DNA from: Halobaculum magnesiiphilum
GTDB lineage: Archaea; Halobacteriota; Halobacteria; Halobacteriales; Haloferacaceae
Assembly (NCBI RefSeq): GCF_019823105.1
Contig: NZ_CP081958.1
Coordinates: 496,001 to 560,000 of the forward strand
Direction of reading: 5' to 3'
DNA: 64,000 bases
In this document: one piece after another, positions 32,470 to 50,954 of the stretch
How positions within the stretch are numbered: the first letter of the stretch is position 1
Layout of the letters: every line of letters begins with the position of its first letter
Notes under the pieces: generated by a model
Told to the model about the DNA's origin: nothing
The model's database searches: none
What the model saw: only the letters and a program-made list of their open reading frames with translations
Made by a program: the position numbers and the translations under genes

Positions 32470-32598
32470 GTCCACCGATTCGACCCCGGAACCTTCAGTG
32501 TACCCAGAATCGAATTTCTGAAAGTTTCCTGAACCGTTTGGCGGGGAGCGTCGCCCGCCATGGAAAACCCTTTCCGCAATTCTTGCGCACACCACCGT

Positions 32599-34416
32599 AT
32601 GAAAGTCCACGTGGGCGCGGGTGCGACCGAGGAGGAGGCCGGCGCCATCGCCTCGGCGCTGGCCGAGCACTTCGGCGTCGACATCGAGGTGTACGCCGGC
32701 GACGACGCTCATGACGACGGCGGCGCTGCCGACGAGCCGATCGCGACCGCCGAGCCGCCCGAGATCGAGTACCCCTTGGACGACGACCTGGGTCCGACCG
32801 ACCGCGAGGCCGAACTCCGCGCGGAGATCGACGACATCCTCGAGGGCGGCCCCGAGAAGTACAAGCAGCGGCTCCCCGAGCAGGGGAAGCTGTTCGTTCG
32901 CGACCGCCTCGACCTGTGGTTCGGCGACGGCGGGGCCGGGGGGACCGGCGACGCGAGTACCGAAGACGCCGCCGACGGCGTGAAGTTCGAGGACGGGAAG
33001 TTCGCCCACTTCGACGCCTGGCACGGGAACTCCCCCGACGTGGCGGAGGCCGACGAGGGCAACCGGCTCCCCGCGGACGGGCTCATCACCGGCGCCGCCG
33101 AGTTCGAGGGGCGCGACCTGCACTTCATGGCGAACGACTTCACCGTGAAGGCGGGGTCGATGGCCGGTCGCGGCGTCGAGAAGTTCCTCCGGATGCAACA
33201 GCGCGCACTCAAGAACGGGAAGCCGGTCCTCTACCTGATGGACTCCTCGGGCGGCCGGATCGACCAGCAGACCGGGTTCTTCGCCAACCGCGAGGGGATC
33301 GGGAAGTACTACTACAACCACTCGATGCTCTCGGGGCGCGTCCCGCAGATCTGCGTGCTCTACGGCCCCTGTATCGCCGGCGCCGCCTACACCCCGGTGT
33401 TCGCCGACTTCACCGTCATGGTCGAGGGGATGTCCGCGATGGCGATCGCGTCGCCGCGGATGGTGAAGATGGTCACCGGCGAGGAGATCGAGATGGACGA
33501 CCTGGGCGGTCCTGACGTGCACGCGAAGTACTCCGGCAGCGCAGACCTCGTCGCCGAGGACGAACAGCATGCCCGACAGCTCGTCGCGGATCTGATGAGC
33601 TACCTCCCCGACAAGGCCGGCGAGAAGCCGCCCCGCAGCGAGCCGAAGCCGCCGACGTATTCGCCCGACGGCATCGACGAGCTGATCCCGGAGGCGCCGA
33701 ACCGCCCGTACGACGTCCACGACCTGCTCGACCGCATCTGCGACGCGGAGTCCGTTTTCGAGCTGAAACCCGAGTACGGCACGGAGATCGTCACGGCGTT
33801 CGCCCGCATCGACGGCAAGCCCGTCGGCGTCGTCGCCAACCAGCCGACCGAGCGCTCGGGTGCCATCTTCCCGGACGCCGCCGAGAAGGCCGCCGAGTTC
33901 ATCTGGACCTGTGACGCCTACGAGATCCCCCTGCTGTACCTCTGTGACACGCCGGGGTTCATGGCCGGCTCGCAGGTCGAGAAGGACGCCATCCTCGAGA
34001 AGGGCAAGAAGTTCATCTACGCGACCTCCTCGGCCACCGTCCCCAAGCAGACCGTCGTCATCCGCAAGGCGTACGGCGCGGGCATCTACGCGATGGGCGG
34101 CCCCGCCTACGAGCCGGAGTCCGTCATCGGGCTCCCCTCCGGCGAGATCGGGATCATGGGCCCCGAGGCGGCGATCAACGCCGTCTACGCCAACAAGCTC
34201 GCTGAGATCGACGACCCCGACGAGCGCGCCGAGCGCGAGGACGAACTCCGCGAGGAGTACCGCCGCGACATCGACATCCACCGGATGGCGAGCGAGGTCG
34301 TCATCGACGAGATCGTCCCGCCCTCCGACCTCCGCGAGGAGCTCGTCCAGCGGTTCGACTTCTACGAGGACATCGAGAAGTCGGTCCCCGACAAGAAGCA
34401 CGGGACCGTTCTCTAG
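32599..34416 (+). CDS. pccB: Acyl-CoA carboxylase carboxyltransferase (beta) subunit with N-terminal extension
   Basis: A 605-residue carboxyltransferase that moves the carboxyl group from biotin to acetyl- or propionyl-CoA. The crotonase-fold halves are clear: YLMDSSGGRIDQQTGFF and VLYGPCIAGAAYTPVFADF in the N-half, and IPLLYLCDTPGFMAGSQVEK and KAYGAGIYAMGGPAYEPE in the C-half. The first 45 residues (MKVHVGAGATEEEAGAIASA) resemble the small PccX/epsilon-type subunits of actinobacterial and haloarchaeal carboxylases, then an acidic linker follows, so a fusion is likely. No biotin carboxylase gene is in the window. ATG 32599 begins this extension. Confidence 0.92.
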   Translation: MKVHVGAGATEEEAGAIASALAEHFGVDIEVYAGDDAHDDGGAADEPIATAEPPEIEYPLDDDLGPTDREAELRAEIDDILEGGPEKYKQRLPEQGKLFVRDRLDLWFGDGGAGGTGDASTEDAADGVKFEDGKFAHFDAWHGNSPDVAEADEGNRLPADGLITGAAEFEGRDLHFMANDFTVKAGSMAGRGVEKFLRMQQRALKNGKPVLYLMDSSGGRIDQQTGFFANREGIGKYYYNHSMLSGRVPQICVLYGPCIAGAAYTPVFADFTVMVEGMSAMAIASPRMVKMVTGEEIEMDDLGGPDVHAKYSGSADLVAEDEQHARQLVADLMSYLPDKAGEKPPRSEPKPPTYSPDGIDELIPEAPNRPYDVHDLLDRICDAESVFELKPEYGTEIVTAFARIDGKPVGVVANQPTERSGAIFPDAAEKAAEFIWTCDAYEIPLLYLCDTPGFMAGSQVEKDAILEKGKKFIYATSSATVPKQTVVIRKAYGAGIYAMGGPAYEPESVIGLPSGEIGIMGPEAAINAVYANKLAEIDDPDERAEREDELREEYRRDIDIHRMASEVVIDEIVPPSDLREELVQRFDFYEDIEKSVPDKKHGTVL

Positions 34417-34829
34417 GGCCGGATCCGACCCGCCCGGTCCGACAGTCGTTCCGTTCACTGCTCGGATCCCTCAGACCGGCTGTTACCGCTGTGATAACGG
34501 CGGGTGACCGGATCCTTCCGGCTATCTGTTCGCGGTCGGAACGATAGATTTTACGATGGAGACCATCCCGTCACGCGATCCGACGGGCGTCGGTCGACGC
34601 CGCAGAAGTGAGGACAGAGCGCGCGTCAAGACCTCGATTTCGACCGGTAATGGACGGATCTTCGGCGGGTTCGGGACCAGCTATCGTCCGAGTTATTGTA
34701 CTTTTACTGAACTTTAGAAGTGTCGTGGCTTCTCTCACCCTCGTCGGAGCGAGCGCGCCTCCGCGGGGAGAGGAGCGATGACAGAGACATATCAACACGA
34801 GCGATCGAGGAATCGGGAGGCCCGCGAGG
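34417..34829. other. 413-base intergenic region upstream of the surface-protein island
   Basis: I see no gene in this stretch. It is more AT-rich than its surroundings near 34690-34720, where TTTTACTGAACTTTAG could hold the promoter for the large secreted protein at 34830, about 100 bases downstream. That would leave a long leader, in contrast to the leaderless genes elsewhere. Confidence 0.4.
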
Positions 34830-37800
34830 ATGAGACGAGTGGGTAGAAAACAGGTATTCGCGGTACTGTTCGCGGTACTGACGGCGACGTCGATGGCCGT
34901 CGGCACGGTCGCGGTCTCGGGGGGGGCCGCCGCCGCGGCGCCCGGCGATGTCGTTTACCGCGTGAACGCCGGCGGCTCGACCGTCGCCGCCGCCGACGGC
35001 GGCCCGGACTGGGCCGCCAGCGACGGAACGTACGTCTCCGGAGGGAACACGTACTCCCAGGACGTGAGCGTCTCGACGGACGCGAGCGTTCCAGGGTCGA
35101 CGCCGACATCGGTGTTCACCTCGGAAGTGTACGGTAACCAGGAGTGGACCTTCTCGGAGAACATCCAGAGCGGCCAGCAGTACGAGGTCCGCCTGTACTT
35201 CGCCGAGATCTTCCATGGGGTTGACGGCGACGCCGGAGGCGAGGGGGACCGCGTCTTCGACGTCAGCGTCGAGGGCGAGACGGTCCTGGACGGCTACGAC
35301 ATCTACGCCGACGTCGGCGCGGCGACCGGAACGATGCAGTCGTTCACGGTGACGCCCGAGGACGGCGAGATCGACGTGGATCTCGCGACCGAGGTCGACA
35401 ACGCGAAGATCTCCGCGATCGAGATCGTCGAGGCGGAGCCGCAGCCCGACACGCTCGGCGGCCCCTCGGACGCCGACTTCGGGTCGGTCGTCGTCGACGA
35501 TTCCGCGACCGAGACGGTCACGGTGACCAACCTCGGCGCCGACGGCGACGGCGACATCACGATCACGGACGCGTCGGTGACCGGCACGGACGCGGGCGAG
35601 TTCTCGGTCGGCACCCCGTCGCAGACGACGCTTGCGCCCGGCGAGTCCGCGGACGTCCCCGTGACGTTCTCGCCGTCCAGCGTCGACCCGAAGAGCGCGA
35701 CGCTGGAGGTGACCCACGACGGATCCAACAGCCCGTTGACGGTCGATCTCGCCGGCGAGGCGACGAGCGCGACGGAACCCAGCTTCGACAAGTCCACGCT
35801 GGAGGGATTCAGCGCGGGCAACCCGACCGCGATCGAGATCGGCCCGGACGGCCGGGTGTACGTCTCGACGCAGGGCGGCACCGTGTATGCGCTGTCGGTC
35901 GAGCGCACGGGTGACAACAGCTACGAAGTCGTCAACGAGGTCGAGATCGACGCGATCGAGGACATCCCGAACCACGACGACCTCGGGAACCTCGAATCCG
36001 GCCAGGACGACCGGCAGATCACCGGCCTGACGGTCGGCGGCACCGCCGAGAACCCGGTGGTGTACGTCTCCTCGAGCGACCCCGAGATCTCCGTCGGACA
36101 GGACGACGACACGACGGACACGAACTCCGGGGCCATCTCGAGGCTGACGATCGACGCCGGGAGCGACGAGACGCTGCAGACGAGCGATATCACGCACGAA
36201 GTGCTGGTGCTCGGGCTCCCGCGCTCGGAGGAGAACCACGCGACGAACGGGCTCGACCTCTCGGCGGACGGCGACACGCTGTACGCCGCCCAGGGCGGCC
36301 ACACCAACAAGGGCGCGCCGGGCGACAACTTCGGCCACACGCCAGAGTACGCGCTGTCGGCGGCGATCCTCGAGATCGACCTGGCACAGATCGAGGGGAT
36401 GTCCGCCGACAGCCACCAGACCTACGACAGCGATTATCCGGACCTGCCGTTCTACTACGCGTTGCCGACGATCGGCGACGACGAGGTCCTGCCGTTCGGC
36501 GGCGACGACGGCGCCAACCAGGCGGAGCTCGTCGAGGACGGGCCGGTCCAGATCTACTCGCCCGGCTACCGGAACCCGTACGACCTGGTCGTCGCGGAGA
36601 GCGGGCAGGTCTACGTCGCCGACCACGGTCCGAACGGCGGCTGGGGCGGCCAGCCCGCCGACCAGAACGGCGACACCGTCGCCGACGCCGCGTCGGTGAC
36701 GAACCACCCGAACGAGGACGGCAGCTACTCCACGAGCGACCAGCTCGTGAAGGTCGACGAGGGGGACTACGGCGGCCACCCCGCGCCGATCCGTGCCAAC
36801 CCGACCGGCGCCGACCTCTACGACGCGAACGGGGACGTGAGCCTCGACATCACGGAGTCGAACTCGCCGGTCCCCGAGAGCATGGTCGACCCGCGGCAGG
36901 CCGACTACATCCCGCCGACCGCCGGATCGCCCGACCCGGGCGCGCCCGCCGGCAGCGCGAACACGATGGAGGACCAGAGCGGGAACAAGGTCCTCTTCGC
37001 TCCGACCGGCGGGACGGCGCAGTACACCGCCTCGAACTTCGGCGGCGCGATGGAGGGCGACCTCCTGCAGGTCGAGCTCGGCGGCTCGATCAAGCGCGTC
37101 GAGTTGAGCGCCGACGGCTCGACGGTGACGAACGTCGAGACGGTCGGCAACACGAACGGACCGCTCGGCATCTCCGCCCAGGACGACGACGAGGTGTTCG
37201 GCGGGACGATCTGGATCGCCAACCACGGCGGCGACGACATCACGGTGTTCGAGCCGGCCGATTACGGGAGCGACGACGGTGACGGCGACGACGGCGCCGG
37301 CGACACCTGTACCGGCGCCGACGACGCCTCGCTCGACGAGGACGGCGACGGCTACGACAACGCCGACGAGATCGACGCCGGCACAGACCCGTGTTCGGCC
37401 AGCTCGACGCCCGTCGACTTCGACGACGACGGCACGTCGAACCTGAACGACCCCGACGACGACAACGACGGCCTCGACGACACCGAGGACCCGTTCGCGG
37501 TCGACCCGGACAACGGGCTCGACACGACGGCTCCCGTCCAGCACGACCTCTCCGAGCTGAGCCTGTTCGGCGAGAACGGGCAGGGCTGGACCGGCGTGAT
37601 GACGAACGGGCAGGACTACCAGGACCTCTACGACCCGACGGAGATGACGGTCGGCGGTGCGGCCGAGGTGCTCACCGTCGAGGAGGTCCCACAGGGTGAC
37701 GCGTACGCCGGCACGAACACCCAGCAGTACGGCTTCCAGTTCGGCGTCGACACGCCCGACGAGCCGTTCGTCGTCGAGACGACGGTCGCCTCGTTCCCGG

Positions 37801-40800
37801 AGAACCCGGAGGACTACCAGTCGGCCGGGCTGTTCATCGGGACCGGCGACCAGTCGAACTACGTCAAGCTCGTCGCCGCGGCCGACGGCGGCGACGGCGG
37901 CGTCGAGTTCGCCCAAGAGGTGGACGACTCCTTCGACGGCCAGATGACCGGGGAGAGCGCGGTCACGGGCAACGATGTCACGCTTCGAATGACCGTCGAA
38001 CCGACGACGGACCCGGCGCCGAACAACGGCGTCGACGAAGTCGCGGTCACCGCCGAGTACGAGGTCGACGGCACCACGACCGAGGTCGGAACGACCGCGA
38101 TGCCGGCGAGCTGGCTCGACACCTCCGACGGCGTCGCGCCCGCGGTCGGCATCATCTCGACGTCCAACGGCGCGAGCAGCACGTTCCCGGCAACGTGGAC
38201 ACAGATCTCCGTCGATTACGTGAACCCGCCCGCGAACGAGCCGCCCACGGCCGACGCGGGCGCCGACCAGACCGTCGAGGAGGGAACCCAGGCCACGCTC
38301 GACGCCTCCGGGTCACAGGACCCGGACGGTGACCAACTCGGGTACACGTGGACCCAAACGGACGGTCAAGACGTCGACCTCAGCGTGAACGACGGTGAGC
38401 AGACGACGTTCACCGCTCCCGACGTCGGATCGGAAACGACGCTGACCTTCCAGGTGAGCGTCTCGGACGGGCAGGACAGCGACGCCGACTCGGTGAACGT
38501 CACCGTGCAGCCCTCCGAGGACGAGCCGCCGGCAGGCGACGGGATGACCGTCGCGGAGGCGGTCGCACTGGGCGGCGAGAACGACTCGCAGATCGAGAAC
38601 GCGGAGATCCAGCAGGCTATCAGCTGGTGGTCTGCCGGCAGCGAGGTCCCCGACACCGGCGGGGAGACCATCACCAACGCCCAGATCCAACAGCTCATCA
38701 ACTACTGGTCGACTGACGCGGCCGTCGGCGACGACGGTGACGACTCCGACGACGGCGACGACGGCACCGACACGCCCGCCTCGGCGACGATCGAGGTCAC
38801 GCCGGACACCGGCACCGAGGCGAGCACCTACGGCGGCGGCTCGTTCACGATCGAGAACACCGGCGACGAGGAGGTCTCCTCGGTCACCTTCGACCTCTCG
38901 TCGTCGGCGATGCCCGACGTGGTGTTCGACCCCAACGGAACGGCCGGCGATTCGGCCGCGAAGGGGCTGAACATCGACTCGGAGTCGGGTGACGGCGTCG
39001 GCGTCGTCAGCACCGACGACGGCGACGTCTTCAGCCAGCCGCACAACGGCGTGAACGGCTCCGACGGCTACGACGTGATGACCGTCGAGTTCGACGACTT
39101 CGACCCCGGCGAGTCGGTGTCCCTCTCGGTGGACAACGACCCGACGAGCATCAAGGACGCGAGCCTCGCCTCGCAGGAGGCCGGACCGATCTCCGGCCTC
39201 GAACTCGCCCGCTCCACCGTGAGCGTGGAGTACGGCGACGGCGGCGTTCAGGAGACACAGCTGTTCGGCGACGGGAGCGCGGGCGGCGCACAGGCGACGC
39301 TCGACGAGTCGGTCGCGCCGGCACCGAGCATCGACGTGCAGGACGTCGATCTCGACGACGGCGCGCTCCGCGACCACCACGGCGCGGCCACCGTGAGCGA
39401 TGCCGACCAGACCGTGACCGTCTCCGGCGAGCCCGGCGAGACGGTCACGCTGCTTCACTTCGAGGGCGAACTCGAACTGACCAACGTCCCCGAGTACGAC
39501 GGCACGCCCGGTTACGACATCGACGCCTACGAGGCCAACAAGATCGAGCAGGTCGACTACGAGACGGTCACGCTCGACTCGAACGGCGAGGCCGAGATAC
39601 CCGTCACGCTACTCAACTCGACCGACGTCGGCGGCTACAACTACCTCGTGGCGACCCACGGCGAGCCCGGGTCCGACACCGGCCTCGCCTCGAACGTGGT
39701 CGTCCTGAAGTACGAGGAGAGCGCCGGCGACGGCGATGACGACGGTGCCGCCACCAGCTTCGCGGTGAACGCCGGCGGCGACGCCTACACCGCCGCCGAC
39801 GGCACGGAGTTCCAGGCCGACACGAACTTCGACGGCGGCACGGCGTTCGCGACGGGAGGTTCGGGCACGCCCGCGGATCCCGAGATCGCGAACACCGACG
39901 ACGACGAGCTGTACCACACCGAGCGGTACGGCGACTTCAGCTACGACGCCCCCCTCGCGGACGGCACCTACGAGGTCACGCTGCACTTCGCCGAGCTCTA
40001 CCAGGGCGTGGCGAACGACGGCGGCGAGGGCGATCGGCTGTTCGACGTCTCGATCGAGGGTCAGCAGGTCCTCGACGAGTACGACATCTACGCGGAGGCC
40101 GGCGGTGAGCACGCGGCGATCACCGAGACCGTCACCGTGGAGGTCACCGACGGCGAGCTGAACGTCGACTTCAGCACCGTCGAGGACAACGCGAAGGTGT
40201 CGGCCATCGAGGTCGAGCCGGCCGACGGAGACGACGGCGGCGACAACGCCGCGCCGACCATCGGTTCCATCGCCGACCAGACTGTCACGGAGGGCGACTC
40301 CGCGAACGTCTCGGTCGATACCGACGACCCCGACGGCGACCCGGTGTCGCTGTCGGTGAGCGGTCCGGACTTCGTCGCCGTCTCGAACGGCGAGGTGACG
40401 GTCACCCCCGCGTCGGGTGACGCGGGGACCTACACGGTCGACGTGACGGCCGACGACGGCAACGGCGGAACGGCGACCGAGTCGTTCCAGCTCACCGTCG
40501 AGGAGCAGTCCTCAGACGACGGCGCCTCCCAGCAGGTGCTCCACCGCGTGAACGCGGGCGAGGGCGAGACGATCCCCGCGACCGACGACGGTCCCGACTG
40601 GACCGGCGTCGCGGACACGAGTTCGCCGTACCTCGCGGCTGCCGACGGCGGCAACTACGGCGACGGCACGATCGCCTCGACGACCGCGAACGTCCCGGCG
40701 AGCACTCCGGACGGAGTGTGGGACGCCGAGCGCTACGGGAACATGACGTGGGAGTTCGCGGTCGACGCCGGCGAGGACGTCGAGGTTCGACTCTACCTCG

Positions 40801-41045
40801 GTAACTCGTTCAGCGGCGCGAGCGAGCCCGGCGACCGCCAGTTCAACGTCTCGATCGAGGGTCAGCAGGTCCTGACGCAGTACGACCCCGTGGCCGACGT
40901 CGGTCACGCGACGGGGACGATGAAGAGCTTCACCGTCACCGAGGACGGCGACGGGACGATCACGGTCGTCTTCGAGCAAGGGGCGGTCGAGAACCCGGAG
41001 GTTCGGGCCATCGAGATCCTCGGACCGGAGGACAGCGACTCGTAG
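34830..41045 (+). CDS. Giant secreted protein: three malectin domains, beta-propeller, PKD, dockerin-like
   Basis: A 2071-residue exported protein. A Sec signal peptide covers residues 1-37. Domains in order: malectin-like (about 44-201), ASPM/HYDIN-type Ig (207-312), a beta-propeller resembling glucose/sorbosone dehydrogenase (314-811; NPYDLVVAESGQVYVADHGPNGGWGG), thrombospondin-type-3-like Asp repeats (820-895), a LamG/DUF1349-like sandwich (897-1131), PKD (1134-1227), a dockerin-like helix repeat with two NAxIQQxIxxWS motifs (1239-1297), two Ig-like regions (1319-1631), malectin (1643-1796), cadherin-like Ig (1804-1892) and malectin (1902-2067). Malectin domains bind carbohydrate. No membrane anchor is seen, so retention may rely on the dockerin-like part. 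It is probably a polysaccharide-binding surface or matrix protein. Confidence 0.85.
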   Translation: MRRVGRKQVFAVLFAVLTATSMAVGTVAVSGGAAAAAPGDVVYRVNAGGSTVAAADGGPDWAASDGTYVSGGNTYSQDVSVSTDASVPGSTPTSVFTSEVYGNQEWTFSENIQSGQQYEVRLYFAEIFHGVDGDAGGEGDRVFDVSVEGETVLDGYDIYADVGAATGTMQSFTVTPEDGEIDVDLATEVDNAKISAIEIVEAEPQPDTLGGPSDADFGSVVVDDSATETVTVTNLGADGDGDITITDASVTGTDAGEFSVGTPSQTTLAPGESADVPVTFSPSSVDPKSATLEVTHDGSNSPLTVDLAGEATSATEPSFDKSTLEGFSAGNPTAIEIGPDGRVYVSTQGGTVYALSVERTGDNSYEVVNEVEIDAIEDIPNHDDLGNLESGQDDRQITGLTVGGTAENPVVYVSSSDPEISVGQDDDTTDTNSGAISRLTIDAGSDETLQTSDITHEVLVLGLPRSEENHATNGLDLSADGDTLYAAQGGHTNKGAPGDNFGHTPEYALSAAILEIDLAQIEGMSADSHQTYDSDYPDLPFYYALPTIGDDEVLPFGGDDGANQAELVEDGPVQIYSPGYRNPYDLVVAESGQVYVADHGPNGGWGGQPADQNGDTVADAASVTNHPNEDGSYSTSDQLVKVDEGDYGGHPAPIRANPTGADLYDANGDVSLDITESNSPVPESMVDPRQADYIPPTAGSPDPGAPAGSANTMEDQSGNKVLFAPTGGTAQYTASNFGGAMEGDLLQVELGGSIKRVELSADGSTVTNVETVGNTNGPLGISAQDDDEVFGGTIWIANHGGDDITVFEPADYGSDDGDGDDGAGDTCTGADDASLDEDGDGYDNADEIDAGTDPCSASSTPVDFDDDGTSNLNDPDDDNDGLDDTEDPFAVDPDNGLDTTAPVQHDLSELSLFGENGQGWTGVMTNGQDYQDLYDPTEMTVGGAAEVLTVEEVPQGDAYAGTNTQQYGFQFGVDTPDEPFVVETTVASFPENPEDYQSAGLFIGTGDQSNYVKLVAAADGGDGGVEFAQEVDDSFDGQMTGESAVTGNDVTLRMTVEPTTDPAPNNGVDEVAVTAEYEVDGTTTEVGTTAMPASWLDTSDGVAPAVGIISTSNGASSTFPATWTQISVDYVNPPANEPPTADAGADQTVEEGTQATLDASGSQDPDGDQLGYTWTQTDGQDVDLSVNDGEQTTFTAPDVGSETTLTFQVSVSDGQDSDADSVNVTVQPSEDEPPAGDGMTVAEAVALGGENDSQIENAEIQQAISWWSAGSEVPDTGGETITNAQIQQLINYWSTDAAVGDDGDDSDDGDDGTDTPASATIEVTPDTGTEASTYGGGSFTIENTGDEEVSSVTFDLSSSAMPDVVFDPNGTAGDSAAKGLNIDSESGDGVGVVSTDDGDVFSQPHNGVNGSDGYDVMTVEFDDFDPGESVSLSVDNDPTSIKDASLASQEAGPISGLELARSTVSVEYGDGGVQETQLFGDGSAGGAQATLDESVAPAPSIDVQDVDLDDGALRDHHGAATVSDADQTVTVSGEPGETVTLLHFEGELELTNVPEYDGTPGYDIDAYEANKIEQVDYETVTLDSNGEAEIPVTLLNSTDVGGYNYLVATHGEPGSDTGLASNVVVLKYEESAGDGDDDGAATSFAVNAGGDAYTAADGTEFQADTNFDGGTAFATGGSGTPADPEIANTDDDELYHTERYGDFSYDAPLADGTYEVTLHFAELYQGVANDGGEGDRLFDVSIEGQQVLDEYDIYAEAGGEHAAITETVTVEVTDGELNVDFSTVEDNAKVSAIEVEPADGDDGGDNAAPTIGSIADQTVTEGDSANVSVDTDDPDGDPVSLSVSGPDFVAVSNGEVTVTPASGDAGTYTVDVTADDGNGGTATESFQLTVEEQSSDDGASQQVLHRVNAGEGETIPATDDGPDWTGVADTSSPYLAAADGGNYGDGTIASTTANVPASTPDGVWDAERYGNMTWEFAVDAGEDVEVRLYLGNSFSGASEPGDRQFNVSIEGQQVLTQYDPVADVGHATGTMKSFTVTEDGDGTITVVFEQGAVENPEVRAIEILGPEDSDS

Positions 41046-41378
41046 TCCCAACGCTCCGCCCGAACCGATGACCGGAACCTCCACACGCGCCGTCGCTGTC
41101 CGCCCGCGGTCAACCGGCGGGGTCGGCCCCGACAGCGACGGCCGCGCGAGGACGCGGACCGCCGACGACAGCCGACCGCTCTCGTGTGTCGCGACGCGGC
41201 CCCGACCGGCGCCCTTCGGGGGTAACGCTCACGAGAACCGACTCGCGCCGGTCGGGCCACTTCGGCCCCCGAGGTTCTCCCGCTCATCGGTCGCGGTCGG
41301 GCGAGACTGCCCCGACCAGCGAACCGAGCGACGAACGATCCCACGACGACACCCAACTCAACGACACCGACAACAACG
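41046..41378. other. 333-base intergenic region within the surface-protein island
   Basis: It separates two secreted-protein genes on the same strand. I see no convincing gene, no TATA-like element at the usual spacing and no strong hairpin. It may hold an untranslated leader for the gene at 41379. Confidence 0.4.
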
Positions 41379-43385
41379 ATGAACGATACAGCACGCAGAC
41401 ATCTCAGACAGACGGTCGCGACGCTCGTCGCGCTCTCGATCGTCCTCTCGGTCCTCGGACCGGTGGGGACGGTTGCGGCGGATCCGAGCGTCTCGATCGA
41501 TCAGACTGCCGGCAGCGACACGGTCGAACCGGGAGAGACGGTGACGATCACGACGACGCTGACAGCGGAGGACGTTAACGGTCCGCTCGTCGAACTGGAC
41601 TTCCCGGACGGCTGGGAAGGCACGGTTACCGACTCGGACGGCGGAGCGGTGAACCCGCAGGACGACAACGGTAACGTCCTCTCGTCGAACTCCCCGTCGA
41701 TCGTCTGGCTCAGCTCGGGGACCTACGAGGTCACGACCGAGCTCCAGGTGCCGGAGGACGCGACTCCCGGCGAGTACACGATCTCGACCACGGGGTCGGG
41801 AGTCGACCCGACCGACGATGACTCGCTCGCCAACGAGGACGACGAGATAGACTCGACGGAGACGACCATCACGGTCCAGGACCCCGACCAGAACGAGGAC
41901 CCCACGGCGGCGTTCACCGCGAGTCCGTCCTCGCCCGACGCGGGTGAGGGGGTCTCCTTCGACGCTTCCGGCTCCAGTGACGCCGACGGTTCGATCGCGA
42001 GCTACGAGTGGGACTTCGGTGACGGGTCGACCGCCACCGGTGTCTCGCCGTCGCACACCTTCGACGACGCCGGCGAGTACGACGTGACGCTCACGGTCAC
42101 GGACGACGACGGCGCCACGGCGACGACCACGGAGACCGTCTCCGTGAGCGAGCCCGAGCCCGCGAACGAACCGCCGACGGCCGACGCGGGCGCCGACCAG
42201 ACCGTCGATGAGGGCGACGCCGTGACGCTCGACGCGTCCGACTCCAGTGACGCCGACGGCTCGATCGCGAGCTACTCGTGGACGCAGACCGACGGCCAAA
42301 GCGTCGACCTGTCGGACGCCGACGCGGCGCAGCCGACGTTCGACGCCCCCGCGGTCGACTCCGACCAGCAGCTCACGTTCGAGGTCGACGTCACCGACGA
42401 CGACGGCGACACGGCGAGCGACACGGTCGTCGTGACCGTCGAGGCCGCCGACGAACCGCCGGAGAACCAGGACCCGACGGCCGACTTCTCCGGCCCCTCG
42501 AACGCCGAGACCGGCGAGTCGGTGAGCTTCGACGCGTCCGCCTCGTCCGACACCGACGGTTCGATCGCGAGCTACGAGTGGGACTTCGGCGACGGGTCGA
42601 CCGCGACCGGCGTCTCGCCGTCACACACGTTCGACGACGCCGGCGAGTACGACGTGACGCTCACCGTCACGGACGACGACGGCGCCACGGCGACGACCAC
42701 GGAGACAGTCACCGTGACCGCGGCGTCCGACGAGCCCGACAACGAGACGCCCGCGTCGACGACGATGAGCCTCTCGCCCGAGAGCGAGCTCGTCGCCGTC
42801 GGCGACACCGCCGAGTACGATATCGTCGTCGACGACGTCGAGAACGGGGTCGGCGCGTACGTGCTGACCGTCACCGTCGACGACCCGAGCGTGGCCTCGA
42901 TCACGGACGTCGAGCTCGCGGACGTCTCCGACGAGGACCTCACCGACGTGCAGATCGCCGAGGACGGCTCCTCGGTGACCGTCGAGGCGGTCCTGGTCGA
43001 CACCGACGACACCGGAGCCGTGACCGTCGGAACGGTCACGGTGGAGTCCGCCGGGGAGGGGACAACGGGGGTCTCGCTCGACGTCTCCGAGCTCGGCGAC
43101 GAGTCCGGCGACCCGTACGAGGTGACGGACACGTCCGGCGCCTCGCTCGAGGCGTCCACCCTCGTCGTCGGCGAGTCCGACAGCCCGGCGCAGGACCCGG
43201 ACGGCGACGGCGACTTCGAGGACATCAACGGTGACGGCACCGTGGACATCCTCGACGTCCAGACGCTGTTCGCAGACCGAGACGGCGAGGCCGTGCAGAA
43301 CGCGCCCGACGCGTTCGACTTCAACGGGGACGGCGAGTTCACGCTGCTCGACATTCAGGCGCTGTTCGCCGAGGAGACGGGGTGA
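41379..43385 (+). CDS. Secreted PKD, cohesin-like and dockerin-like protein
   Basis: A 668-residue exported protein with a Sec signal (about 1-33). An Ig-like N-terminal domain (34-170) is followed by three PKD domains (173-262, 263-358, 364-448), a cohesin-like beta-sandwich (459-600; GDTAEYDIVVDDVENGVGAY) and a C-terminal dockerin-like pair of EF-hand repeats (606-668; DINGDGTVDILDVQTLF and DFNGDGEFTLLDIQALF) with Asp/Asn positions for calcium. PKD1 and PKD3 are nearly identical even at the DNA level. Having both a cohesin-like and a dockerin-like module in one chain is scaffoldin-like. The next gene encodes a membrane-anchored paralogue of the same cohesin-like domain nine bases later. Confidence 0.88.
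   Translation: MNDTARRHLRQTVATLVALSIVLSVLGPVGTVAADPSVSIDQTAGSDTVEPGETVTITTTLTAEDVNGPLVELDFPDGWEGTVTDSDGGAVNPQDDNGNVLSSNSPSIVWLSSGTYEVTTELQVPEDATPGEYTISTTGSGVDPTDDDSLANEDDEIDSTETTITVQDPDQNEDPTAAFTASPSSPDAGEGVSFDASGSSDADGSIASYEWDFGDGSTATGVSPSHTFDDAGEYDVTLTVTDDDGATATTTETVSVSEPEPANEPPTADAGADQTVDEGDAVTLDASDSSDADGSIASYSWTQTDGQSVDLSDADAAQPTFDAPAVDSDQQLTFEVDVTDDDGDTASDTVVVTVEAADEPPENQDPTADFSGPSNAETGESVSFDASASSDTDGSIASYEWDFGDGSTATGVSPSHTFDDAGEYDVTLTVTDDDGATATTTETVTVTAASDEPDNETPASTTMSLSPESELVAVGDTAEYDIVVDDVENGVGAYVLTVTVDDPSVASITDVELADVSDEDLTDVQIAEDGSSVTVEAVLVDTDDTGAVTVGTVTVESAGEGTTGVSLDVSELGDESGDPYEVTDTSGASLEASTLVVGESDSPAQDPDGDGDFEDINGDGTVDILDVQTLFADRDGEAVQNAPDAFDFNGDGEFTLLDIQALFAEETG
41985..42136 (+). 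repeat. PKD-domain direct repeat, copy A
   Basis: About 152 bases encoding the core of PKD1 (SIASYEWDFGDGS through TATTTET). Copy B is at 42555-42706, 570 bases downstream. I count about seven differences, all at third codon positions and silent. Confidence 0.8.
42555..42706 (+). repeat. PKD-domain direct repeat, copy B
   Basis: Second copy of the PKD core (PKD3), matching 41985-42136 except for about seven silent third-position changes. Confidence 0.8.
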
Positions 43386-43394
43386 ACTGAACGG

Positions 43395-44408
43395 ATGTGG
43401 ATGCCAGGGATCGACGCTCCGACGTCGTCCGTGACGGCGGCCCTGCTGGGGCTGCTGCTGGTGACCGCGGCGGCGGCTCCGGCCGTCGCGGCGACGGACA
43501 CGACCGTGCGGCTCGTCGGGGCCGGGGGGACGACGGCCGTCGGCGAGACCACGACGGTCGCCGTCGTCGTCGCGGACGCCGAGGACGGGGTCGGCGCGTA
43601 CGACCTGACCGTCGCCGTCGAGGACCCGGACGTGGCGACCGTGGTCGACGTGGAGCTCGGCGGCGACCCCGGACTCCGTGACGTCGAGGTCGCCTCGGAC
43701 GGGTCGAGCGTATCAGTCCGCACGGCGCTGATGGAGACGGACGACGAGGGCGAGGTGACGGTCGCGACGGTCACCGTCGCCGGCGAGTCCCCCGGCTCGA
43801 CCGACCTCGACCTCTCCGTCGAGACCCTCGGCGACGAGGAGGGGCAGGCGTACACGGTGACCGACGAGGACGACTCCTCGATCGAGGTCGCCGACGACGC
43901 CGGCTCGGACGGCGAGTCGGACGACACGGACGACGGAACCGGCGACAGTTCGACCGGCGACACGGACGACAGTTCGGGTGACACCGACGACGGGACTGAC
44001 GGTACCCCCGACGACGGGTTCGACGGTACCCCCGAGGACGATTCCGGTTCGAACGCCGGCTCCGGTTCGGACGACACCGGGTCGGACGACACTGGGTCGG
44101 ATTCCGGTTCGGACGACGCCGGATCGGACTCCGACTCGGGATCCACGACGACTTCCGTCGCGGACGACGGGGCGGAACCCACCCCGTCGCCCGAGGCCAC
44201 GGCGACCCCGGCTGCTGAGACTGCCACGGAGGCGACCGACTCGTCGACGGAAGCCGCGTCCGACGCGGACGAGGACGACGAGCTCCTGGCCGTCGGGGTC
44301 GGGACCGACGGCTCGAACGCGCCGCTGCAACCCACGACGGTGGTCGTTCCGCTGGTGGCCGGGCTAGCCCTGGTCGGCGGCGCCGCCTACCTGTACCGGC
44401 TGCGCTGA
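43395..44408 (+). CDS. Membrane-anchored cohesin-like surface protein
   Basis: A 337-residue exported protein. A signal peptide (about 1-33) precedes one cohesin-like domain (about 34-170; GETTTVAVVVADAEDGVGAY, then VTVATVTVAGE), which is clearly paralogous to the cohesin-like domain of the preceding gene. A long Ser/Asp/Gly/Thr linker (about 170-300) with GSDDTGSDSGSD-type repeats, a likely wall-spanning and glycosylated spacer, leads to a C-terminal transmembrane helix (VVVPLVAGLALVGGAAYLY) ending RLR. The layout is that of an anchoring cohesin. It lies nine bases after the PKD protein gene, so the two are co-transcribed. Confidence 0.85.
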   Translation: MWMPGIDAPTSSVTAALLGLLLVTAAAAPAVAATDTTVRLVGAGGTTAVGETTTVAVVVADAEDGVGAYDLTVAVEDPDVATVVDVELGGDPGLRDVEVASDGSSVSVRTALMETDDEGEVTVATVTVAGESPGSTDLDLSVETLGDEEGQAYTVTDEDDSSIEVADDAGSDGESDDTDDGTGDSSTGDTDDSSGDTDDGTDGTPDDGFDGTPEDDSGSNAGSGSDDTGSDDTGSDSGSDDAGSDSDSGSTTTSVADDGAEPTPSPEATATPAAETATEATDSSTEAASDADEDDELLAVGVGTDGSNAPLQPTTVVVPLVAGLALVGGAAYLYRLR

Positions 44409-44491
44409 CCGGGCGGTTCCGGCCCTCGTTTTCCCCGTTCTTCCATCCTCGATCGCCCGAGCGACGCTCGTGGTCAGCGAACGGTGCCGGC

Positions 44492-45097
44492 TCACCGATC
44501 GAGCGCCGCGCGGAGCCGTCCGACCTCCTCGCGGACGGCCCGCCACGAGTCGATCGAACCCGGGATCGACTCCGTCTCGCCTTTCCGCCCGGATCGCGTG
44601 TGCTCGTCGACGAGCGACCGCACCGCCTGCGGGTCGTCGACGCGGCGGAAGGCGAGGTCGCCGCCGGCCGTCTCCAGCTTCACCGTCCCGTAGCCGAACA
44701 GCGATCCGGTGACGGACTGCTCGTACGCGGTGTTCTCGGCCATCGAGAGCCGCGCACGGGCGACGCGCCGGCCGACGATCCCGGTCTTCACCGACGCCGC
44801 GCGGTCGGTGAGGACGTACCGGGTGTTCACGAGCGACAGCACCGCGACCCCGGGGATCGCGAGGCCGACGAGGACGGCGAGCGCCGCGATCGCGAGCCCG
44901 AAGCGGCTCGTCGCCGCCGGCCCGACGGCGACCGCCATTCCGCCACCGGCGACGAGCAGCCCGACGAGGCCGGCCGGAGCCGCAGCCGAGAGCCGCGGCC
45001 GCCCGGTCCAGCGCACGACCTCGTCGTCGTCGACGGTGACCGACGCCGGAACGGCCCAGTCGGTGACGACACCGTCTGGTTCCGCGTCGGCGGTCAT
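44492..45097 (-). CDS. PH-domain (bPH2/YdbS-like) membrane protein
   Basis: A 201-residue protein with two adjacent transmembrane helices (about 40-90; GLVGLLVAGGGMAVAVG and LAIAALAVLVGLAIPGVAVL) followed by a bacterial-PH domain with the family pattern NTRYVLTDRAASVKTGIVGRRVARARL and FGYGTVKLETAGGD. The YdbS/YdbT families are often found as pairs and may act in stress or membrane homeostasis; no specific role is shown here. Its start overlaps the stop of the upstream PH-domain gene by 4 bases. Confidence 0.82.
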   Translation of the reverse strand: MTADAEPDGVVTDWAVPASVTVDDDEVVRWTGRPRLSAAAPAGLVGLLVAGGGMAVAVGPAATSRFGLAIAALAVLVGLAIPGVAVLSLVNTRYVLTDRAASVKTGIVGRRVARARLSMAENTAYEQSVTGSLFGYGTVKLETAGGDLAFRRVDDPQAVRSLVDEHTRSGRKGETESIPGSIDSWRAVREEVGRLRAALDR

Positions 45098-45765
45098 CGG
45101 TCGTCGTCGCCGGCTGTCGACGACGCGTCGGCGTCGGGGCCCTCGCCATCGCCGCCGACAGGGCCGTCCTCGCCGTCGCGGTTGTCGGCGTCGACGTCGT
45201 CCCCGGCGGCGTCAGCGGCGGCGCCGTCGTCCTCGACGGCCGCGCGGATCGCGCGCAGTTCGCCGAGGATGTCGTCGAGCACGTCGGCTTTCGTCTCCCC
45301 GTCGCCGGCGTCGCCGCGGCGGTCGCGGGCGCGGATGCGCTCGTTCACCAGCTCCTGGATCCGCTTGGGCTCGGCGACGCTGTCGAAGCTGAGCTCGACG
45401 CCCGAGCCGCCGGCCGTGGAGATGTCGACGCTTCCGTAGCCGAACTGCGTGCCGAAGAAGTCCTGCGAGTAGGAGGTGTCCTGCACCTTCTCGAAGCCGA
45501 CCCGCTTCACGTCCCGGGAGACGACGCCGCGCTTCTTGTACAGCGCCTCGGTGGTGATCACGTACTCCGTGTTCTCCCGCGAGAGGTACGCCGAGACGAC
45601 GATCGGAATGCCGACGAGCACCAGCGACAGGGGCACGCCGACGACGAGCGCGGGGACGAGGCTCATCGAGTGCGGCTTGCCCGTCCAGACGACCTCCTCC
45701 TCGGGGTCGAGCGAGAGCCAGTCGAAGCCGTCAGGAAGCGTGTCCTCGGTGGAGGGAGATTCCAT
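45094..45765 (-). CDS. PH-domain (bPH2/YdbS-like) membrane protein
   Basis: A 223-residue paralogue of the next gene. DPEEEVVWTGKPHSMSLVPALVVGVPLSLVLVGIPIVVSAYL gives one or two membrane segments, and NTEYVITTEALYKKRGVVSRDVKRVGFEKVQDTSYSQDF...FGYGSVDISTAGGSG is the bPH2 core. The C-terminal 80 residues are helical then Asp/Ala-rich, with LDDILGELRAIRAAVEDD, a probable coiled-coil. The pair is transcribed together with a 4-base overlap and probably forms a heteromeric membrane complex; partners and function are unknown. Confidence 0.85.
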   Translation of the reverse strand: MESPSTEDTLPDGFDWLSLDPEEEVVWTGKPHSMSLVPALVVGVPLSLVLVGIPIVVSAYLSRENTEYVITTEALYKKRGVVSRDVKRVGFEKVQDTSYSQDFFGTQFGYGSVDISTAGGSGVELSFDSVAEPKRIQELVNERIRARDRRGDAGDGETKADVLDDILGELRAIRAAVEDDGAAADAAGDDVDADNRDGEDGPVGGDGEGPDADASSTAGDDDR

Positions 45766-48169: not shown

Positions 48170-49486
48170 TCAGGGCCACAGGCCGCGGACGCTCTTCGCC
48201 TCCGCGATACGGTCGAGCGCCACGACGTACGCTGCGTCGCGCCAGGTGACGTCCCTGTCCTCGACCTCGTCCCTGACGGCGTCCCACGCCGAGAGCATCT
48301 CCGACTCCAGTTCCTCCTGGACCTGTTCGAGCGTCCACGTGCGGCGATTGATGTCCTGGAGCCACTCGAAGTAGCTGACGGTGACGCCGCCGGCGTTCGC
48401 GAGGATGTCGGGGATGACGTGGACCCCGCGCTCGGCGAGGATCTCGTCGGCCGGGAACGTCGTCGGGCCGTTGGCGCCCTCGACGACGATGTCGGCGCGG
48501 ATCTCGTTCGCGTTGTCGACGGTGATCACGTTGCCGACGGCCGCCGGGATCAGCACGTCGACGTCGAGTTCGAGGATGTCGTTCCCCTCGTCGAGCAGGT
48601 CGGCGCCGTCGGCGTCGGCGCCGTACTCGGTGACGGCGTTCGGCTGCTCGGCGAAGCTCGGGATCGCGTGCGTATCGAGCCCCGACGGGTCGTGAACGGC
48701 GCCGCCGGAGTCGGAAACAGCGACCACGTCCGCCCCCCAGTCGTCGAGCAGGCGGGCGGCGTTGGCGCCCACCGAGCCGTACCCCTGCACGGCGACGGTG
48801 AGGCCGTCGAGGTCGAAGTCGTAGTACCGGGCCGCCTCGCGCGTGATGATCGCGACCGAGCGACCGGGCGCCTCCTCGCGTCCCTCCGAGCCGCCGACGA
48901 CGGGCGGCTTGCCCGTGACGACGCCGGGGATGGTCTCGCCCTCCTGCATCGAGTACGCGTCCATGAACCACGCCATCGTCTGGGCGTCGGTGCCCATGTC
49001 GGGCGCCGGGATGTCCTTCTTGGGCCCGACGAACTTGCGCAGTTCCTCGGCGAACCGGCGGGTGAGCCGCTCCTTCTCGTCGGTCGACAGCTCCTTCGGG
49101 TTGACGACGACCCCGCCCTTGCCACCGCCGAACGGGAGGTCCATCACGGCGCACTTCCAGGTCATCCACATCGAGAGGCCGACGCACTCCTCCTCGCTCA
49201 CCTCCGGGTGGAAGCGCAGGCCGCCCTTGTACGGGCCGCGCACGTCGTCGTGCTGTGCGCGGTAGCCGGTGAACACCTCGACGGAGCCGTCGTCGCGCTC
49301 CAGCGGCACCGCGACGCGGTGGACCGTCGTCGGGTGCTTGAGGCGCTCGATGACGCCGGGGTCGACGTCGAGGTGGGCCGCGGCGTGCTCCAACTGCCGG
49401 CGCGCGGTCTCCAGCGCCGATTCGGGCTCGTGCTGTTCGTCGGTGGCGACGCGCTTCTCGCCGGTGCCTGCTGTTCCGGTGGACAT
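48170..49486 (-). CDS. gdhA: Glu/Leu/Phe/Val dehydrogenase (glutamate dehydrogenase)
   Basis: A 438-residue NAD(P)-dependent amino-acid dehydrogenase, probably glutamate dehydrogenase, linking 2-oxoglutarate and ammonia to glutamate. The catalytic lysines lie in [57 protein letters not shown] follows; the dinucleotide loop is [19 protein letters not shown] and the C-half ends [16 protein letters not shown]. It is one of two divergent paralogues separated by about 211 bases that contain AT-rich promoter sequence. The first 30 residues are a polar leader. Confidence 0.94.
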
Positions 49487-49697: not shown

Positions 49698-50954
49698 ATG
49701 ACCGACCAAGCGAACCCCTTCGAGAGTCTCCAGGAGCAGGTCGACGACGCGGCGGCGCACCTCGACGTGGCCGACGACGTGCTCGAACGGCTGAAACATC
49801 CCGAGCGAGTGCTGGAGTTGAACCTCTCCGTCGAGCTGGACGACGGGTCGCTGGAGCGGTTTCGGGCGTTCCGGTCGGAGTTCAACGGCGATCGCGGCCC
49901 GTACAAGGGCGGGATCCGCTATCACCCGGGCGTCACGCGCGACGAGGTGAAGGCGCTGTCGGGGTGGATGGTGTACAAGTGCGCCGTCGTCGACATCCCC
50001 TACGGCGGCGGCAAGGGCGGGATCGTCCTCGACCCCTCGGACTACTCCGACGCCGAGATCGAGCGGCTCACCCGCTCGTTCGCCGAGGAGCTGCGCCCGT
50101 TCATCGGCGAGGACAAAGACATCCCGGCGCCGGACGTGAACACGGGCCAGCGGGAGATGAACTGGATCAAGGACACCTACGAGACGCTGGAGAACACGAC
50201 CGAACCGGGCGTGGTCACCGGCAAGTCGCTGGACTCGGGCGGCTCGGAGGGGCGCGTCGAGGCGACGGGCCGGTCGACGATGCTCACCGCCCGCGAGGCG
50301 TTCGACTACCTCGACACGGACATCGAGGGGGCCAGCGTCGCCGTCCAGGGGTACGGCAACGCCGGCCACATCGCGGCGTATCTCATCGAGGACATGGGCG
50401 CGAACGTCGTGGCCGTCTCCGACTCCTCGGGCGCCGTCTACGCCGAGGACGGGCTCGACGCCCGCGACGTGAAGCAACACAAGAACGAGACGGGCTCGGT
50501 GACGGGCTACGCCGGCGCCGACGAAGAGTTCTCGAACGAGGACCTGCTCACGATGGACGTCGACCTGCTCGTGCCCGCCGCACTGGAGAACGCCATCGAC
50601 GGCGACCTCGCCCGCGACGTGGAGGCTGACGTGATCGTCGAGGCCGCGAACGGGCCGCTCACGCCGGAGGCCGACGACGTGCTCACCGAGGCCGACGTAC
50701 ACGTGTTCCCCGACATTCTCGCGAACGCCGGCGGCGTCACCGTCAGCTACTTCGAGTGGGTCCAGAACCGCCAGCGGTTCTACTGGACCGAGGAGCGGGT
50801 CAACGAGGAGCTGGAGCGCCACATCGTGAGCGCCTTCGACGATCTGGTCGAGAGCTACGAGTCGCTCGACCTGCCGAACTTCCGCACGGCGGCGTACGTC
50901 GTCGCGGTCCAGCGGGTCGCCGACGCGTTCGCCGACAGCGGCAACTGGCCCTGA
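49698..50954 (+). CDS. gdhB: Glutamate dehydrogenase, second paralogue
   Basis: A 418-residue enzyme of the same family as its divergent neighbour but clearly distinct, with [56 protein letters not shown] and [22 protein letters not shown]. Conservation of the substrate lysines and the nucleotide loop supports activity. Haloarchaea often have separate NAD- and NADP-linked glutamate dehydrogenases; which is which cannot be decided safely from the sequence. The start ATG 49698 is consistent with a leaderless message. Confidence 0.94.

Follow-up and report, generated by a model that had tools for sequence, protein, structure and literature searches.

A cohesin–dockerin pair in a three-gene island of Halobaculum magnesiiphilum, probably part of a mobile surface-tethering cassette

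How do haloarchaea, which have only a membrane and a surface layer (S-layer), keep their exported proteins on the cell? The question is raised by three successive plus-strand open reading frames (ORFs), at 34830-41045, 41379-43385 and 43395-44408, in a stretch of 64,000 nucleotides from Halobaculum magnesiiphilum (NZ_CP081958.1, positions 496,001 to 560,000), referred to here as the window. The products, of 2071, 668 and 337 residues, are called proteins 1, 2 and 3. Each has a signal-like N-terminal segment, which bears out the three consecutive exported proteins of the preliminary description, a reading made from the sequence before any database search. The locus is probably a horizontally mobile cassette that tethers proteins to the cell surface in a calcium-dependent way through a cohesin-dockerin pair, and would be a variant, in haloarchaea, of the ORF2375/ORF2376 pair of Archaeoglobus fulgidus. 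The pair is encoded by the second and third genes, which are separated by 9 bp from stop to start and have the following features.

41379-43385, plus strand: protein 2, 668 residues, with signal, immunoglobulin-like (Ig-like) domain, three PKD domains, cohesin and C-terminal dockerin
42765-43127, plus strand: cohesin of protein 2, residues about 463-583 (in-house profile, 1e-34)
43200-43367, plus strand: type I dockerin of protein 2, with two intact F-hand loops, DINGDGTVDILD and DFNGDGEFTLLD
43395-44408, plus strand: protein 3, 337 residues, with signal, cohesin, Asp/Ser/Thr linker and C-terminal membrane helix
43500-43874, plus strand: cohesin of protein 3, the proposed anchored socket, residues about 36-160
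43902-44294, plus strand: acidic low-complexity linker of protein 3, the proposed stalk, placed by composition
44325-44405, plus strand: C-terminal transmembrane helix of protein 3, hydropathy 2.0 over 19 residues

Sequence profiles identify the C-terminus of protein 2 as a genuine type I dockerin in which both calcium loops are present. PF00404 (Dockerin_1) matches residues 614-662 with 30.2 bits, against a curated cut-off of 22.9, and the isolated dockerin with 34.6 bits. The calcium-loop pattern DxNxDGxxxxxD occurs twice, as DINGDGTVDILD and DFNGDGEFTLLD. PF00404 also matches each of the 25 related dockerins that were scanned, and a profile made from such relatives matches solved dockerins, for example 1daq and 1ohz_B.

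The cohesins were identified by predicted structure. An AlphaFold2 model of the cohesin and dockerin part of protein 2, built from 77 aligned rows, has a mean predicted local distance difference test score (pLDDT) of 95.5 and a predicted template modelling score (pTM) of 0.80, with a linker pLDDT of at least 83. In Foldseek its top matches include 6kgf, 3kcp, 2xdh and 1ohz (E down to 1.5e-8, TMt about 0.7), and all 50 among the PDB matches listed are cohesins, cohesin-like modules or their complexes. VIA-align also returns cohesins, with Z up to 14.9; since its rows span the cohesin part alone (model residues 1-134), the dockerin fold rests on the sequence profiles. Protein 3 has no Pfam match. 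Its cohesin was modelled in a read-through fusion with the protein 2 dockerin, in which the TGA was read as W purely as a modelling device and the alignment held no dockerin rows. The pLDDT exceeds 90 across most of this cohesin, and Foldseek places 2ccl, 1ohz and 6kgf on top, with 2xdh also found; all are cohesins. Because the top structural matches of both domains are cohesins, their identity is settled as far as the predicted fold is concerned, and the possibility that they are unrelated Ig folds, which the preliminary description had named as its refutation, is answered in favour of cohesins. The noncellulosomal cohesin 2xdh of A. fulgidus, which appears in all three structural match lists, is 16-24% identical to the window cohesins. 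A profile of haloarchaeal, methanogen, Archaeoglobaceae and bacterial relatives reaches the PDB cohesin 5lxv at E 2e-4.

The domain layout given for these two proteins in the preliminary description also stands. Protein 2 has three PKD domains, a cohesin fold and a PF00404 match above the cut-off, and protein 3 carries its cohesin on a linker of about 135 residues (26% Asp, 17% Ser, 16% Thr and 15% Gly), followed by a hydrophobic helix that terminates in YLYRLR. The two cohesins are paralogous, as was claimed, with 50% identity, though they appear to be old paralogues. When 157 cohesin domains are placed on a tree, the protein 2 cohesin clusters with those in the same position elsewhere, and that of protein 3 clusters with other anchors. 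For dockerin-linked cohesins, the closest one from a different locus is always nearer than the anchor of the same locus (37 of 37 cases). Since each of the two cohesins lies nearer to its counterparts elsewhere than to its neighbour in the window, the two positions have apparently long been kept apart, with limited tree support on so short a domain.

The 3.73-Mb genome contains a single dockerin, that of protein 2, according to both PF00404 and a dedicated profile, and two clear cohesins, those of proteins 2 and 3. A scaffoldin with several cohesins was not found, as these proteins have one each and the genome has no further clear copy; nor does the genome encode any dockerin-bearing enzyme. 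With PF00963, the rest of the genome gives two weak matches (E 0.007 and 0.7). A broad cohesin profile gives a weak third match (E 2e-4) in a 160-residue frame at G000:C1:575394-575609, and such a weak third match is also present in a congener, G007, that has no dockerin.

The pairing recurs across haloarchaea. Of the 392 genomes examined in the order, 162 match the cohesin profile and 180 match PF00404; both are present in 133, a cohesin alone in 29, a dockerin alone in 47 and neither in 183. A dockerin is thus found in 133 of the 162 cohesin-positive genomes versus 47 of the 230 cohesin-negative ones (odds ratio 17.9). This link is understated, as two genomes scored as dockerin-less (G033 and G041) do have a dockerin beside the cohesin when the dedicated profile is used (loci L042 and L052). 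At the level of genes, the neighbourhoods examined, most of them picked by cohesin matches and some by dockerin matches, hold 98 cohesin ORFs. Fifty-two also carry a dockerin, which is C-terminal in every one. A dockerin gene lies within 500 bp of 42 of the 46 cohesin-only ORFs, on the same strand in all 42 and upstream in 40, and a C-terminal membrane helix is present in 29 of the 46. At several loci the cohesin and the dockerin are on separate neighbouring proteins (L037, L092, L093, L114-L116, L127 of Halorubrum salsamenti and L144 of an Aenigmatarchaeota member), which argues for binding in trans. Haloarcula pellucida and Halomicroarcula rubra (L129, L136) have gene ladders in which a dockerin-bearing giant comes first, two proteins that each combine two cohesins with a dockerin come next, and a protein with three cohesins comes last. 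Viral contigs yielded no relative.

The recurrent layout is a cargo-cohesin-dockerin protein together with a cohesin-linker-membrane helix protein, and the cargo is swapped. In 23 cohesin-dockerin proteins of about 740-960 residues, the cargo is PhoX in 19, PhoD in two and choice-of-anchor I in two. Other cargo includes the C-terminal domain of 5′-nucleotidase (Haloferax sp. Q22, L124), subtilase, SNase, GLUG repeats, pyrroloquinoline quinone (PQQ) propellers and glucose/sorbosone dehydrogenase (GSDH). Because the cargo differs among these proteins, the coupling is the constant part of the system and the displayed cargo, often a phosphate-scavenging enzyme, is the variable part. Phosphate-scavenging ectoenzymes (PhoX, PhoD and 5′-nucleotidase) are the commonest cargo of the haloarchaeal unit (L041, L042, L044, L047, L048, L050, L052, L089, L103, L107-L109, L118-L122 and L124). 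A separate arrangement is seen in L101 and L102 (G280) and in L104 (G118), where exported subtilases stand in tandem, most of those scanned combining a PF00963 cohesin above the cut-off with a different type of C-terminal dockerin (DVTAIHQTIVG); the proteins scattered among them end in PGF-CTERM-like membrane segments. These arrays look like a second haloarchaeal cohesin-dockerin type, a multi-protease cellulosome-like cluster.

The three genes form an island in the window.

34415-44491, no strand: island with exactly the three genes, delimited by blastn against congeners and by flank spacing

The blastn alignment to the sister genome G007 ends at 34414 and restarts at 44492, so that about 10.1 kb here corresponds to about 159 bp there. 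The flanks are a carboxylase gene (32560-34416) and a PH-domain-like gene (45097-45765), the latter present in nine of 10 congeners. All nine congeners that keep both flanks lack the trio, and in nine congeners the flank genes are about 0.8 kb apart, versus 10.7 kb here. The DNA of the trio is 75-85% identical to that of a different genus (G293), where it lies at a different chromosomal place. Two congeners have other versions of the unit, one with a subtilase (G001, L039) and one with a PhoX-group cohesin-dockerin protein (G002, L047).

The first gene of the island encodes the giant protein 1.

34830-41045, plus strand: protein 1, 2071 residues, exported, a malectin/Ig/PKD giant
34956-35429, plus strand: malectin domain 1 (PF11721), approximate
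38541-38729, plus strand: helix repeat, residues about 1238-1300, its identity as a dockerin unsupported
39756-40208, plus strand: malectin domain 2, the best PF11721 stretch, residues 1643-1793
40536-41030, plus strand: malectin domain 3, the third PF11721 stretch, approximate

Pfam finds three malectin domains (PF11721 over three stretches, E 3.9e-66), one PKD domain and a choice-of-anchor-D/HYDIN-like Ig domain. The malectin and PKD parts of the earlier account therefore hold, and the propeller is plausible, with no Pfam match above the cut-off. The dockerin-like helix repeat does not hold: it matches neither Pfam nor the in-house dockerin hidden Markov model (HMM), and hhalign gives it a probability of 6.5% against dockerins, so that a degenerate dockerin was also rejected. 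No dockerin or cohesin was detectable in protein 1. The helix module (38541-38729; G000:C3:242334-242486, L168) is duplicated (..AEIQQAI.WW..VPDTGGETI..) and is also carried at the C-terminal end of a 335-residue protein of several congeners; in one relative, L169, the first half contains an EF-like loop, LDRDGDGELTQADVQ. At 38790-39720 (residues about 1321-1630) there is a domain of about 300 residues that has no Pfam match; almost every orthologue of the giant has it, either singly or twice. Orthologues of protein 1 adjoin cohesin or dockerin genes in many genomes, and at least seven have a true C-terminal dockerin (L035, L087, L088, L105, L113, L129 and L136). Judged by synteny, protein 1 is part of the cassette.

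Taken together, these features suggest how the cassette may work. Protein 3 would be the port: once exported, it would be held by its C-terminal helix, while the acidic stalk would push the cohesin towards the S-layer. Protein 2 would be an exported soluble rod of Ig and PKD domains, whose C-terminal dockerin, loaded with calcium, would plug into the cohesin of protein 3. Protein 2 has a cohesin of its own and the genome has no dockerin besides that of protein 2, which makes head-to-tail chaining possible: further copies of protein 2 could plug into one another to form an anchored chain. The earlier view holds to this extent: protein 3 has the look of an anchored cohesin, and protein 2 could dock and chain. 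Protein 1 would be the co-inherited carbohydrate-binding (malectin) giant of the cassette. Since other haloarchaea carry enzymes on the same unit, chiefly PhoX and PhoD phosphatases, the general function would be the retention of exported proteins on the cell.

Several observations weigh against this cassette. The cohesin profile PF00963 stays below its curated cut-off on both window cohesins, so that of the two profiles proposed in the preliminary description only PF00404 gave a match. PF00963 also finds few of the relatives of these cohesins, weakly and with E no better than 2e-4; the miss is a limit of the profile and not a feature of the fold, as Pfam misses this branch of cohesins. The co-occurrence counts are inflated by cohesin-dockerin fusion and by shared ancestry, related genomes not being independent. 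In the read-through fusion model the cohesin is good, but the dockerin has a pLDDT of about 50 and the linker is poor, because the usable alignment held no dockerin rows. A calcium-dependent interface would have to work at multimolar salt and with about 23% acidic residues. Finally, the well-defined placement of the protein 2 dockerin relative to its own cohesin would also fit an intramolecular latch.

A more general reading can be put forward only tentatively. Haloarchaea may use a mobile, general surface-assembly kit of cohesin-dockerin units, in which protein 2 would form a calcium-dependent head-to-tail fibre growing from the cohesin of protein 3, and exchange of the N-terminal module (phosphatase, nucleotidase, protease or lectin-like rods) would change what is displayed.

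As two cohesins share one dockerin, protein 2 would either chain head to tail or latch its own dockerin. In the latter case the dockerin would fold back over a linker of about 27 residues onto the cohesin of the same chain to give a closed, stable module, and protein 3 would be a separate surface protein or would bind only on opening of the latch. The confident single-chain model speaks for such a latch: a pTM of 0.80 needs a defined placement of the domains, about 0.64 being expected otherwise by our arithmetic. Because the observed value exceeds the expected one, the model suggests that the cohesin and dockerin of protein 2 fit each other; it is compatible with the head-to-tail chain as well as with the latch. 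Most fused proteins also have a linker of 24-31 residues whatever the cargo. The latch is nevertheless unlikely, since three observations speak against it: the loci with cohesin and dockerin on different proteins, the second, membrane-anchored cohesin that recurs just downstream, and the scaffold ladders L087 and L088, where the linkers have 129-232 residues.

It is still less probable that the locus encodes a cellulosome-like device for carbohydrate degradation, in which the malectin giant and further carbohydrate-active proteins would be gathered on a scaffold. The malectin and PKD domains of protein 1 would suit such a device, and in the seven loci where its orthologue ends in a dockerin the giant is probably a client. 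Protein 1 here has no detectable dockerin or cohesin, however, and a Pfam scan of the three proteins found no glycoside hydrolase. As the genome contains exactly one dockerin, a scaffold would have no enzymes or carbohydrate binders with dockerins to recruit, and the cellulosome-like device and the carbohydrate-binding proteins held by the scaffold, both proposed in the preliminary description, have to be given up.

A generic adhesin or matrix cluster, with the cohesins as Ig-like spacers and the dockerin as a calcium-binding cap that do not bind each other, would agree with the PF00963 scores and with the PKD and Ig domains found on many haloarchaeal surface proteins, but is very improbable: both domains have cohesins, and not other Ig folds, as their best structural matches, and cohesin and dockerin are paired both genome-wide and gene by gene.

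Beyond the island, the region 44492-45765 encodes two minus-strand membrane proteins that by eye resemble bacterial PH-domain (YdbS/YdbT-like) proteins. Farther downstream, two adjacent divergent genes, at 48170-49486 (minus strand) and 49698-50954 (plus strand), are glutamate dehydrogenase-like, also by eye.

The surface-tethering cassette can be compared with four known systems. With the clostridial cellulosome (type I/II) it shares the domain folds and the plug-and-socket logic, and the ladders of scaffold genes in L087, L088, L129 and L136 are a further likeness. The window differs in having no cellulases, no S-layer homology (SLH) anchor and one dockerin in the genome. The system is not a cellulosome, because the genome has no dockerin-bearing enzyme.

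In A. fulgidus, ORF2375 carries a cohesin in addition to its dockerin, which gives two cohesins and one dockerin, the same set as in the window. According to PMC9705933 (citing Voronov-Goldman 2011; Bayer 1999), the C-terminal dockerin of ORF2375 (residues 432-506) binds strongly and specifically to the cohesin (residues 29-162) of its neighbour ORF2376, a small cohesin protein. The gene of the dockerin protein adjoins that of the small cohesin protein, and the same order is seen in the window and in tens of haloarchaeal loci. The PKD modules, acidic stalk, membrane helix, malectin giant and island setting distinguish the window from this pair.

Anaerobic methanotrophic (ANME) archaea (PMC9012536) are likewise archaeal and not cellulolytic. 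They have scaffoldin-like proteins in which a single dockerin is combined with several cohesins, and so do the haloarchaeal loci L087, L088, L129 and L136. The reported ANME clients are mostly binding proteins of ATP-binding cassette (ABC) transporters and S-layer proteins, whereas the haloarchaeal clients are mainly phosphatases, PKD/malectin proteins, proteases and propellers, and haloarchaea have a dedicated one-cohesin membrane anchor. By layout, the window pair belongs with these noncellulosomal archaeal cohesin-dockerin pairs of A. fulgidus and ANME archaea, and it would work in the same way.

The present analysis identifies a haloarchaeal cohesin family that is missed by Pfam and stands beside dockerins almost without exception. 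It offers a testable answer to how cells with only a membrane and an S-layer retain exported enzymes, phosphate-scavenging ones above all, and for surface display the cohesin-dockerin pair is a candidate orthogonal binding pair that would tolerate salt. The 2009 survey by Peer and colleagues is said to be the key one for noncellulosomal cohesins and dockerins, and may already list haloarchaeal members.

Type I dockerins on exported haloarchaeal proteins are also present in the dockerin-bearing glycoside hydrolases and glycosaminoglycan (GAG) lyase of Natronoglomus mannanivorans (PMC10963439) and PMC13260240. In these two reports the dockerin is taken as substrate-binding and no cohesin is named; the haloarchaeal cohesin family described here provides candidate partners for these dockerins.

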